From Prosthecobacter sp. (GTDB taxonomy: Bacteria; Verrucomicrobiota; Verrucomicrobiia; Verrucomicrobiales; Verrucomicrobiaceae): 64,000 nucleotides of DNA. The DNA lies in NCBI RefSeq assembly GCF_034366625.1, contig NZ_JAXMIH010000014.1, forward strand, positions 124,001 to 188,000. The letters are read 5' to 3'. Of this stretch, positions 27,962 through 32,235 are shown one piece after another (the stretch's first letter is position 1; every line of letters begins with the position of its first letter). A model generated the notes under the pieces. It was not told the DNA's origin and did no database searches. It saw only the letters and a program-made list of their open reading frames with translations. The position numbers were made by a program, and so were the translations under genes.

Positions 27962-30547
27962 ATGTCCCCCGAAAAATTCACCGTCAAACTCCAGGAAGCC
28001 TTCAACGCCTCCCAGTCCATCGCCACGCGGCACGGGCATCAGGAGCTGAAGCCCTCGCATCTTCTCCTCGCCTTGCTTGAGCAGGAAGGCGGCATAGCGG
28101 TGCCGTTGTTTGAGAAGGCCGCTGTTAATCCAGCCGCAGCCCAAGGCCTGAAGTCTGGCATTGAGGCATTGCTCGCCAAGCAGCCAAAGGTCAGCGGCGG
28201 CACCAGCGGACTGCATCTGTCCAATGAGCTGCGTGAACTCATGACGAAGGCCGAGGACGAGCAGAAGAAGCTCAAGGACGAGTATCTCAGCGTCGAGCAC
28301 ATCATCCTGGCACTCTTCAAAACGAAGACAGAGCTGTCCGATGTGCTGAAACAGGCTGGGCTGAGCTACGACACCGTTTCCAAAGGCCTCACCGCCGTGC
28401 GTGGCTCGCAGCGTGTGGTGGATCAGGATCCTGAGGGCAAATACCAGACGCTGGAGAAATACGGCACCGATCTCACCGCCCGCGCGAAGCAGGGCAAGAT
28501 CGACCCCGTCATCGGTCGTGATGAGGAGATCCGCCGCGTCATGCAGGTGCTCAGCCGCCGCACGAAAAACAACCCCGTGCTCATCGGCGAGCCCGGCGTA
28601 GGCAAGACCGCCATCGCAGAAGGACTCGCGCGACGCATCGTCGCCGGAGACGTGCCGGATTCGCTCAAAGGCAAAAAGCTCATCAGCATGGACCTCGGCG
28701 GCATGATGGCTGGGGCGAAGTTTCGTGGCGAGTTTGAGGAGCGCCTCAAGGCCTTCCTCAAAGAGGTCACCAGCAGCGAGGGCGAGATCATTCTCTTCAT
28801 CGACGAACTGCACACCATCGTCGGCGCGGGCAAAGGCGAGGGCGCGATGGATGCGGGCAATCTTTTGAAGCCGCAGCTCGCACGCGGTGAGCTGCGCTGC
28901 ATCGGCGCGACCACGCTGGATGAGTATCGCAAGCACATCGAAAAAGATCCCGCGTTGGAGCGTCGCTTCCAACCGGTGAAAGTCGGCGAGCCGAGTGTGG
29001 AGGATACCATCGCCATCCTGCGTGGCCTCAAAGAACGCTACGAAGTCCATCACGGCGTGCGCATTCAAGACAACGCCATCATTGCCGCCGCCACGCTGAG
29101 CAATCGCTACATCACCGACCGCTTCCTGCCGGACAAAGCCATCGACCTCGTCGATGAAGCCGCCAGCCGCATCAAGATCGAGCTCGACTCCATGCCCACG
29201 GAGATCGACGTCATTGAGCGCCAAGTCATGATGGGCGAGATGGAGCGTCAGGCTTTGAAGAAAGAAAAGGACGCGGCTTCCAAAGCCCGCATTGAAAAGC
29301 TCGACAAAGAGATCGCTGACCTCAAAGAAAGCTCCTCCGCATTGAAAGCGCAGTGGATGAAGGAAAAGGAATCCGTCCAAGCCGGTCGCAAGATGAAGGA
29401 GGAACTCGAACGCCTCCGCACTGAGCAGGAGCAGGCGCAGCGCCGTGGCGACTTCGGTCGTGCCGGTGAGATTCAATACGGTCTCATCCCTGATCTCGAA
29501 AAGAAACTCGCGGCCTCGTCCTCAGAAAACAAAGAACCACGCGCCGCACACACCTTGCTGCGCGAAGAAGTCACCGAAGAAGACATCGCCCGCGTCGTGG
29601 CGAACTGGACAGGCATTCCCGTTTCACGCCTGCAAGAAGGCGAGCGCTCGAAGCTCGTGAAGATGGAGGAGCGCCTCGGCAAACGCGTCATCGGCCAGAA
29701 GGACGCTATCACCGCCGTCAGCAATGCCGTGCGCCGTGCGCGTGCGGGCATTCAGGATGAGAACCGCCCGATTGGCAGCTTCCTCTTCCTCGGCCCCACC
29801 GGCGTCGGCAAGACGGAGCTTTGCAAAGCCCTCGCCGAGTTCCTTTTCGACGACGACAGCGCCATGACGCGCATCGACATGAGCGAATACATGGAGAAGC
29901 ACAGCGTCAGCCGCCTCATCGGAGCGCCTCCCGGCTACGTCGGTTATGAAGAAGGCGGCCAGCTCAGCGAAACCGTGCGTCGGCGGCCTTACAGCGTCGT
30001 CTTGTTCGACGAAGTCGAAAAAGCGCACCCCGACGTCTTCAACGTCCTGCTCCAGGTGCTCGATGATGGCCGCATCACCGACGGCCAGGGCCGCACGGTC
30101 GATTTCAAGAACACGGTCCTCATCATGACCAGCAACATCGGCAGCAACGTCATCCAGGACGTGTCCAACGCCGAGCAGCGCGACGCTTTGGTGCGCGACA
30201 GCCTGAAGCAGTTCTTCCGCCCCGAGTTCCTCAACCGCATCGACGAGATCGTCATCTTCGACCGTCTCGACGCCGCGCAGCTCGACCAGATCGTCAAAAT
30301 TCAGCTCCAGCGCGTCATCGACCGCCTCGCCAAGCAGAACATCCACCTCACCGTCACCGACGACACCACCCGCTACCTCGCCGACGCCGGCTTCGATCCC
30401 GTCTTCGGCGCCCGCCCCCTCAAACGCGCCATCCAGAAACACCTCCTCGATCCGCTCAGCTTGGCGGTCCTCGAAGGCGGCTTCAAAGACGGCGATCACA
30501 TCACGGCGGTGATGAAAGGCGGGAAGCCGGTGTTTGAGAAGAGGTAA
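27962..30547 (+). CDS. clpB: ClpB disaggregase
   Basis: This 861-residue AAA+ chaperone has an N-domain ([18 protein letters not shown]), AAA-1 with [15 protein letters not shown] and LFIDELHT, a coiled-coil M-domain at ~410-525, and AAA-2 with [16 protein letters not shown] and LFDEVEKAH. With DnaK it resolves protein aggregates in the cytoplasm. It has no IGF/LGF ClpP loop that I can see, consistent with ClpB rather than ClpA/C. I find no CIRCE element upstream. Confidence 0.97.
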
Positions 30548-30592: not shown

Positions 30593-31927
30593 TCAAGCGA
30601 GTATCATGTTCATATTTGTCGTGGTAATTCCCGACTTAAAATAAACATCGCCATTTTTGCTCCACACCAAACTGACGCCACCATCTTGTGAGACAACGAA
30701 GGTTGCAAGATTCGGTTCCGCCCCGCAGAGGCGTATAGCAGAACGATGTCGCATGCCCATTTGTTCAGTATCAAGCTCGCATAATCCTTCGCACTGCATG
30801 GGATTGTCTACCTCGAAAGCCTTGGCTGGCTTTACTTTGTCGAGAACGATTTCGGCACCGAAACCTTCGACACTCAAATCGGTTCTCAGAACGATAGCCC
30901 CATCAGTTCCCGCGAAGCCTCCAATAAATGTGCATGCTTGAGCGACCTTCTGCTGAAGGCCTTGAAGGGGAAATGAAGCCAAGGCCATTTCCTGTTCGCT
31001 AGGTGCCGCATTTTTCTTCCACTCAGATAACCAAACCATGTCCCCGTGGCGATGCCGCGCATTCATAAAGTTGACGAAATGGTCCTTTAAACTATCTGCC
31101 CCTGCCGCCAGCCCATACTTGATCCTCACACAACCTGATCCAACAAGGTCACAAGAATGTTTCTTCAAAATCAGAGCCCCACCGTGACCGGCAAGTTGCA
31201 TCCCGTTAAGGACGGCCAGAATGCAGTTCACATATGCAAGCCACTCGAACTCATGCCACTCACTCGCATGCTCATGAGTCGGCGTGGTTATTAACTCTCG
31301 GAGCGCGGCGTGACCCTCCTTAAACAAAGGATATGCGCCAAGCAAATCCAACGAGGCAATTCTCGTGCTCGCCACTTCAAGTCTTCCACTCGACAATGAG
31401 GCCATGCGGTAACCGCTCTGATAAACGGCCATTCGCCCTGGCGCAGTAACGCGCACCATTAAAGCATGAGGCAGCGATTCGTAATGATAAGAGAATGCAT
31501 TCCTGGCAACAGACCAAGATCTTCCAAGATTCACCAGTCCACGAATCATCAGCTTTCCGGATTCTTCGCTAGAAGATCGAACCCAAATAGCTGACGAATC
31601 GATATCAGTGACCGCCGCAAGTCGTCGGATCTCTTGGGTATTGAATGGTCGCTCTGAAGCAAATTCCAAGGGCTTGATTGGCTCTGCTCCCTCCCGATGG
31701 GGTATGTCATTGGAGCCGCAAGAACAGCAGAGCATAAATCGCAATGGTCGTGCCTCGTCAGTTTCCATTCCGGCCAAATAAGCCACTTCCAAGAGTTCTT
31801 TTAGCTGAATGGGCGATGGTAGTGGGGGTGGAAAATAGTCCCCACCTATTAGGTAGCCCCACCCTTCGCTAACCATTGCAGCTAGATCGGCGGCGAATGC
31901 CCGCTGTGGCTGTATTTCAGTCGTCAT
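30593..31927 (-). CDS. Protein with C-terminal DisA/CdaA-like diadenylate cyclase domain
   Basis: The 444-residue protein has no signal or membrane segment. Its C-terminus (~330-440) reads TDGAIVLRTDL (D342-G-A) and MGMRHRSAIRL (R393-H-R), followed by ATFVVSQDGGVSLVW. These are the DGA and RHR active-site motifs of diadenylate cyclases, in the same order and with the same following strands. The DGA-RHR gap (~51 residues) is about 20 longer than in DisA or CdaA. The N-terminal ~320 residues are unrecognised and Cys/His-rich in places. It may synthesise c-di-AMP or be a DAC-derived nucleotide sensor (the DACN-type sensor families). Sampled GC is near 48%, against ~65% in clpB, suggesting transfer. 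Confidence 0.7.
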   Translation of the reverse strand: MTTEIQPQRAFAADLAAMVSEGWGYLIGGDYFPPPLPSPIQLKELLEVAYLAGMETDEARPLRFMLCCSCGSNDIPHREGAEPIKPLEFASERPFNTQEIRRLAAVTDIDSSAIWVRSSSEESGKLMIRGLVNLGRSWSVARNAFSYHYESLPHALMVRVTAPGRMAVYQSGYRMASLSSGRLEVASTRIASLDLLGAYPLFKEGHAALRELITTPTHEHASEWHEFEWLAYVNCILAVLNGMQLAGHGGALILKKHSCDLVGSGCVRIKYGLAAGADSLKDHFVNFMNARHRHGDMVWLSEWKKNAAPSEQEMALASFPLQGLQQKVAQACTFIGGFAGTDGAIVLRTDLSVEGFGAEIVLDKVKPAKAFEVDNPMQCEGLCELDTEQMGMRHRSAIRLCGAEPNLATFVVSQDGGVSLVWSKNGDVYFKSGITTTNMNMILA

Positions 31928-31986: not shown

Positions 31987-32235
31987 CTACCTCCAGCGTT
32001 TCAGAAAATCCCAAATGCGGATGATCACGTAGATCCCGCCGTAGAACACCACGCCCATCACGATGAACGCGATGACGGTCTCGCCGAAAGACCCGCCTCC
32101 CGACCCACCGGGCGGAGGATACGGATAAGCCGGTCCTGATCCCCCAGAGGGGCGTGAAGGCGGCACCACCTGGGCGTGGGCCATGCGGCTTAACAGGAGC
32201 AGTCCGGCAGTGAGGCATGGGGAGATCTTCATCAT
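31987..32235 (-). CDS. Small exported membrane protein, Gly/Pro-rich
   Basis: The 82-residue protein has a signal peptide (CLTAGLLLLSRMAHA), a Pro/Gly/Ser linker (PPSRPSGGSGPAYPYPPPGG) and one C-terminal membrane segment (IAFIVMGVVFYGGIYVIIRI) with a basic end. ATG at 32232 is an alternative start. The function is unknown. It lies downstream of the acetyltransferase gene. Confidence 0.6.
   Translation of the reverse strand: MMKISPCLTAGLLLLSRMAHAQVVPPSRPSGGSGPAYPYPPPGGSGGGSFGETVIAFIVMGVVFYGGIYVIIRIWDFLKRWR

Follow-up and report, generated by a model that had tools for sequence, protein, structure and literature searches.

The window analysed here is a stretch of 64,000 nucleotides from a Prosthecobacter sp. 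genome (contig NZ_JAXMIH010000014.1), in which a gene that we refer to as DACNV-DAC lies tail to tail with clpB (27962-30547), 45 bases apart. Its open reading frame of 444 codons is intact and contains the two motifs claimed for it in an earlier note on this DNA, DGA and RHRSA (the latter at residues 393-397). Positions of the gene and of the features of its product are given in Table 1. GC content of the gene is 50.6% (49.2% at third positions), as compared to 60.6% (78.9% at third positions) for clpB, and equally AT-rich stretches of 1335 bases make up 0.35% of the window, the gene itself included. The AT-richer island described earlier is therefore real in that the gene is AT-richer than its surroundings, although the GC values given for it (~48%, and ~65% for clpB) were slightly off.

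Table 1. Features of the DACNV-DAC gene and its product (window coordinates)
Feature	Residues	Coordinates	Strand	Basis or remark
DACNV-DAC gene	444 aa	30593..31927	minus	ATG start, open reading frame without internal stop
Pfam PF21751 (DACNV)	35-132	31532..31825	minus	58.2 bits, cut-off 27
N-terminal domain, proposed degenerate DAC fold	~36-188	31364..31822	minus	model, pLDDT 85
C-terminal DAC domain	~219-436	30620..31273	minus	model, Foldseek, VIA, hhalign
Equivalent of the GALI motif (here GGAL)	249-252	31172..31183	minus	family register
Long helical hairpin	279-340	30908..31093	minus	inside the DAC domain, precedes DGA
DGA motif	342-344	30896..30904	minus	sequence and alignment
Pre-RHR stretch, site of the longer spacing	361-390	30758..30847	minus	hhalign gap placement
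GMRHRSA motif	391-397	30737..30757	minus	sequence and alignment
SQD replacing SEE	413-415	30683..30691	minus	hhalign aligns SQD to SEE

Upstream of the gene and on the same strand are an 82-residue open reading frame, a GNAT gene, a nitrilase gene and a 335-residue open reading frame that has no Pfam match, followed farther upstream by DUF1501, SUKH and sulfatase genes on the opposite strand. Pfam matches among the ten neighbours scanned were ClpB, GNAT, nitrilase, DUF1501, SUKH, sulfatase, AI-2E transporter and M48 peptidase, with two neighbours giving none. The 82-residue open reading frame (31987-32235, minus strand) is one without a Pfam match, and its product has a hydrophobic stretch at the C terminus and a part rich in glycine and proline. 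The SUKH-family gene (PF09346; 36070-36504) lies between clpB and the sulfatase gene and is also AT-rich, with a third-position GC of 48%.

The 3' flank of clpB was compared in ten relatives, and no DAC gene was found in the stretch fetched downstream of clpB in any of the ten. In L140, L141, L143 and L146, clpB is followed by 2.5-5.2 kb of other sequence and then by the sulfatase gene of the window (36515 on), and in L138, L139, L142 and L144 no sulfatase gene was found within 11-13 kb after clpB; the fetched flanks of L145 and L147 were shorter. Gene content thus differs between clpB 3' flanks, and in the window the DAC gene is part of it. BLAST searches with the protein matched 1 of 55 relatives of the host genome overall and none of the 34 other genomes of the genus. 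Among 387 genomes of the phylum, PF21751 found a match in 10, one of them the host's own. Taken together, the variable clpB flank, the low third-position GC and the sporadic presence suggest horizontal gain and indicate no source. We infer that the gene was probably acquired by horizontal transfer into a variable stretch beside clpB. The 3' end of clpB is also found repeated in one genome (G012), where a 228-base, 92.5% direct repeat lies ~0.7 kb downstream of clpB (L140 3269-3496), and shorter pieces of the clpB 3' end occur elsewhere in three more genomes of the genus (G007, G008 and G032); insertion may occur repeatedly in the clpB 3' flank.

Relatives of the protein

A first scan of genome contigs (query P0001) gave no match. 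An alignment-based scan of genome contigs returned 220 relatives. The best 80 of these were analysed, and the counts on relatives given throughout describe these best 80 of 220 scan matches plus relatives that were found separately. The resulting set of 89 aligned sequences omits L029 and L050, which duplicate L017 and L016, as well as L015, which is frameshifted, and L024, which is truncated at a contig end. An alignment of 88 rows (A2), which also omits the plasmid protein L014, was used for structure modelling and for a Pfam scan. L173, L179, L181/L182 and L183 were found later and stand outside the 89-sequence counts and the tree.

The family is conserved across at least nine phyla (89 sequences, the scan part being the best 80 of 220). 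By record title these include Verrucomicrobiota, Bacteroidota (Hymenobacter), Actinomycetota (Rubrobacter), Myxococcota, Thermodesulfobacteriota, Acidobacteriota, Planctomycetota, Nitrospirota, Cyanobacteriota, along with a small number of others. Neither two scans of viral contigs nor the phage records yielded a relative. Two Hymenobacter plasmid records bear the NCBI name 'putative sensor domain DACNV-containing protein', and on a plasmid of Hymenobacter volaticus the DACNV gene is split in two frames (L015 7875-9147). In the Pfam scan, DACNV was matched in all 88 members of A2 and DAC in 78 of 88 at E <= 0.01, and the window protein thus belongs with the DACNV-DAC family, with which it shares its whole length, both domains, the motif spacing and the motifs.

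Identity of the window protein to the remaining 87 rows of A2 is 19-31%. In a maximum-likelihood tree it groups with L026 (support 100/99), and a long branch separates the pair from the remaining 87 sequences; as both are long-branch rows, their exact place in the tree is unsure. The genome that carries L026 also encodes L179, which is 43% identical to the window protein, and a further relative in another genome is split over two contigs (L181/L182). The window protein and these three relatives seem to form a rare, deep subclade.

The C-terminal DAC domain

The PF02457 (DAC) profile matched residues 386-421 of the window protein at 19.6 bits, below the curated cut-off of 27. Nine relatives (L037, L042, L045, L056, L057, L076, L084, L099 and L179) scored 27.1-29.8, these scores being matched by position and in most cases including added neighbouring pieces. 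An AlphaFold2 model of the window protein was generated from 88 sequences with a mean pLDDT of 86. The best Foldseek matches to this model were CdaA structures (E 6e-5), and VIA re-alignment of the predicted model gave a Z of 12.3 to 2fb5 (143 residues, rmsd 2.6) and of 12.2 to DisA (9y9y) over 132 residues. The top 40 VIA entries were all DACs, after which Z drops to 4.0. Alignment of the family to 15 PF02457 domains using hhalign gave a probability of 95.5 and an E of 1.4e-8 over residues 339-419, pairing DGA with DGA, GxRHR with GxRHR and SQD with SEE. The weak PF02457 match, the hhalign alignment and the structural match bear out the DAC fold proposed in the earlier note, profile similarity to PF02457 included, and on the predicted model the reading of residues ~190-440 as a DAC domain holds.

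The start of the VIA alignments to DACs falls at residues 187-227, which places the beginning of the DAC domain there and not near residue 320. The earlier boundary assigned nearly half of a supposed 320-residue N-terminal module (~190-340) wrongly, as this part forms the first portion of the DAC fold. It includes the long hairpin, whose predicted helices span residues 279-305 and 311-340.

Comparison to characterized DACs shows both likeness and difference. With CdaA/DacA the window protein shares the DAC fold (Z 9.5-11.0 among the matches listed), DG, RHR and the conserved Ser. It differs from CdaA/DacA in lacking N-terminal membrane helices (no 19-residue stretch exceeds 1.6 on the Kyte-Doolittle scale), in the residue spacing from the Asp of DGA to the Arg of RHR (51 as compared to 32 in CdaA), in its helical hairpin and in having SQD for SEE. 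With DisA it shares the fold, although the DAC domain of DisA is N-terminal and is followed by a linker and a DNA-binding domain, whereas that of the window protein is C-terminal; the protein ends after it, and no Pfam match to any domain behind it was found.

The residues of the motifs are strongly conserved. All 89 aligned sequences share D342, G343, R393, H394, R395, S413 and D415, and 88 of them share A344, with the reservation that RHR was partly selected, since one of the two scan patterns held G[TM]RHR (78 scan-derived sequences); DGA was not selected. Ten full-length relatives were found independently of the RHR pattern (eight through the N-terminal Pfam model, one by genome BLAST and one by plasmid tblastn), and all ten have DG and RHR, with DGA in nine and DGV in one. 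DGL occurs in two relatives found later (L173 and L183). Of the alignment columns, twelve do not vary among the 89 sequences (G130, G249, D342, G343, G357, G391, R393, H394, R395, R399, S413 and D415), of which nine are residues of DAC motifs, or eight if G249 is left out. As judged from the sequences, the pairing of DGA with RHR exceeds chance, and the DAC motifs are retained in the window protein's own subclade at 33-43% identity.

According to a review, the CdaA site consists of the Leu of GALI, the Asp of DGA, the Thr-Arg-His of GTRHR, a conserved Ser, the Glu of SEE and main-chain atoms (PMC7288161). At these places the window protein has D342, M392-R393-H394, S413 and D415. The (V/I)SEE motif is replaced by VSQD, in which an acidic residue is retained. 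Met at the Thr place of GTRHR is found in 4 of the 89 sequences, and other DAC domains have Leu or Ser there, with Leu in eight of 15 (L148-L153, L001 and L158). The assignment of GALI is less certain. The string itself occurs at residues 250-253, although the family register sets the motif at 249-252, with A251 at the place of the Leu. This register is based on G249, which is present in 89 of 89 sequences, and on one member whose GALI occupies 249-252; the 2fb5 sequence, aligned weakly by HMMER, falls into the same register.

The larger gap between the motifs, which had been noted as unlike DisA, is real and constant in the family: the spacing is 45-51 residues in 89 of 89 sequences and 32-37 in 15 of 15 other DAC domains, the latter being PF02457 domains from carrier genomes, one of which (L164) has RHI for RHR. 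The extra residues precede RHR and replace a stretch with an LP or FP pair, and a GFGxEI stretch is found there. The backbone of Leu88 of CdaA contacts adenine, and Leu88 would fall within the replaced stretch. Replacement of the adenine-contacting stretch by a longer, different one makes the base used uncertain. An active enzyme that uses this longer, family-specific stretch to make a product other than c-di-AMP, such as another cyclic or a linear dinucleotide, would account for both the spacing and the exchange of the LP-containing segment for GFGxEI, and we rate this as quite unlikely.

SQD, M392, A251, the replaced adenine-contacting stretch and the PF02457 score below cut-off are points against an active DAC. 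The first four also favor a DAC-derived nucleotide sensor, the pocket of which would bind ATP or c-di-AMP and alter protein contacts with no cyclase activity. Such a sensor is unlikely, though less so than a different product, as D342, R393, H394, R395, S413 and D415 are present in 89 of 89 sequences, which is seemingly beyond what mere binding would need, and no output domain is fused to the DAC domain.

The N-terminal DACNV domain

The N-terminal module is not new, as the earlier note had supposed; residues 35-132 match the known Pfam family PF21751 (DACNV) well above its cut-off, and the module is already named in databases, including the NCBI name cited above. Neither NCBIfam nor PADLOC gave a match for the window protein. 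The DACNV name was reportedly defined, probably, by Galperin in 2023 (J Bacteriol). No experiments on DACNV were found in the limited literature collection searched, and a claim to a categorically new system is not supported.

Residues 1-204 were folded alone from 79 sequences, with a pLDDT of 85. VIA alignment of this model gave Z values of 6.2-7.8 to DAC structures, with 7dfx as the best match (120 residues, rmsd 3.7). All of the top 20 entries were DACs, and the next row had a Z of 2.7. These values come from the 954 highest Foldseek chains, of which 948 were aligned, so that the list was chosen by Foldseek and is not a fair sample of folds. The tool itself cautions that a Z of 7-8 may reflect a common arrangement, although only DACs reach such values here. 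By our reading of the DSSP lines, the order of elements in the N-terminal model is helix, two strands, helix, two strands, helix and three strands, and that in the C-terminal domain is the same except for the extra hairpin helix and short elements. Good alignment to DACs only, together with the matching order of elements, suggests that DACNV is a degenerate DAC, and it is likely, on these predicted models, that the two folds are related.

Searches other than VIA gave no such signal. Foldseek alone returned no match to the N-terminal model better than an E of 0.7, and hhalign of the N-terminal domain against other DACs gave a probability of 0.7%. For the N-terminal against the C-terminal domain, hhalign gave a probability of 0.2% and a score of 14.3, as compared to 13.7 +/- 2.5 in 60 shuffles and 18.4 for the reversed C-terminal domain. 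Inclusion of secondary structure brought no gain, the shuffles having been run without it. The best local match pairs residues 150-170 with 402-422, which is compatible with the fold, but does not score significantly. Proof of a tandem DAC from sequence was rejected, as the real comparison lies within the shuffled controls and below the reversed domain.

We tentatively suggest that DACNV is a DAC minus its catalytic residues and not a sensor of a separate kind, that each chain is a built-in asymmetric pair in which one DAC is dead and the other live, and that the live half, its adenine pocket being reshaped, might produce some nucleotide besides c-di-AMP in place of it; we regard this as somewhat less likely than not. 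By analogy, such a pair might be compared to enzymes whose active domain is under the control of a pseudo-domain twin. Intramolecular pairing of the N-terminal and C-terminal DAC-like domains is a guess. The tandem-DAC idea is nevertheless the part worth following up: should the N-terminal domain prove to be a degenerate DAC, it would become directly testable how DACNV-DAC cyclases are switched, and a whole set of 'putative sensor domain' annotations would gain a structural meaning.

Companion DAC genes, neighbors and the likely role

The host genome has one other DAC gene, which encodes hydrophobic N-terminal stretches. PF02457 was searched in 24 carrier genomes, of which 23 are distinct (G305 = G445), and another PF02457 gene above cut-off was found in 20 of the 23. 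Within those 20, the copy in G168 and in G183 has RHS for RHR, and the best match in G439 is interrupted by a stop. No other PF02457 gene was found in the draft genomes G049, G305/G445 and G444. DACNV-DAC proteins occur in many environmental bacteria, and the family is mostly an extra DAC. Possession of another DAC by most carriers favors the sensor considered above, whereas the three of 23 carriers that show no other DAC (drafts) count against it.

Two features of these companion genes were observed in passing. The RHS domain of G168 and G183, which are of the same class, stands at the end of a longer protein (L154 and L155), the start of which looks like what we take to be a PTS IIA domain. 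The other DACs of these Verrucomicrobiota (L001 and L148-L153) have DGG and GLRHR, not DGA and GTRHR.

We consider it probable, by a modest margin of confidence, that the window protein is an accessory diadenylate cyclase of the DACNV-DAC family. The likeliest role is that of an accessory cytoplasmic DAC making c-di-AMP under control of its N-terminal domain, where activity, product and regulation are read from the predicted fold and motifs. The C-terminal domain would bind ATP via DGA, GxRHR and S-x-D, and two facing DAC domains would join two ATP into c-di-AMP. The N-terminal domain (~36-188) would most likely control the cyclase and, if it is a degenerate DAC, may pack on the catalytic domain and switch it upon ligand binding. 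The protein would work beside the one other, membrane-type DAC of the host genome.

In order to look for partner genes, we collected 138 nearest neighbors from 80 loci (those left of the 89 once loci with at least 90% likeness and the window itself were set aside). Neighboring open reading frames were kept if they were 100-900 aa long, complete within the contig and no more than 1000 bases away, and tiling by length will include some spurious frames in GC-rich DNA. Of the 138, 38 lie on the same strand within 60 bases. No Pfam family was found in more than three of the 138 and no PADLOC model matched more than one, and among the 25 PADLOC matches listed none was a CD-NTase; single matches include RecD-like, PglZ, ShosA and PsyrA models. 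A conserved operon was rejected as a candidate, there being no partner gene recurrent across phyla, which also weighs against a sensor. The absence of recurrence among nearest-neighbor genes indicates that DACNV-DAC most likely acts as a single gene.

These data also bear on anti-phage defense, with the protein as the DAC of a CBASS-like unit. DS-2 is a CBASS with a phospholipase, a cGAS and a DAC, in which the DAC was shown to be needed (PMC13092281). The DS-2 DAC and the window protein would be alike in being DAC-type and in that neither is the housekeeping membrane DAC. Compared by gene setting, they differ, as no CD-NTase or phospholipase gene was found among the ten scanned neighbors in the window. 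The precedent of DS-2, the position of two Hymenobacter relatives (L014 and L057) directly behind a patatin gene, and the AT-richness of the gene in a variable stretch speak for defense. It is nonetheless very improbable: the window protein has no PADLOC match, the 138 neighbors show no recurrent PADLOC model or Pfam family, the patatin neighbors carry an Omp85 domain (L057; 2 of 138 nearest neighbors), and relatives are absent from the phage records and viral contigs scanned. The suggestion of a defense system made in the earlier note thus found no support, and a defense island was rejected because PADLOC scans of the protein and of the 138 neighbors show no pattern.

Ten neighbor clusters within 6 kb were identified by one representative each. 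The largest is a PAS/histidine-kinase family present at 16 of 89 loci, in all orientations and at a median distance of 2.9 kb. Other clusters are dehydrogenases, an ABC transporter, a metallo-hydrolase, a protein kinase, patatin and glutathione peroxidase, and those remaining are sets confined to near relatives. In our reading, the clusters are probably common families or local synteny.

Some local arrangements were observed. The Hymenobacter DACNV gene of L102 lies 3.7 kb from a patatin gene, in addition to the two that directly follow one. In L026 the DACNV gene is preceded by a glutathione peroxidase gene that ends one base ahead of it, and in L014 and L057 such a gene is found at a distance of 2-2.6 kb. 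In five Verrucomicrobiota (L032, L036, L038, L039 and L069), a gene for an AlkZ-like DNA glycosylase, identified from one representative, is found directly behind the DACNV gene, which it overlaps in four of the five.
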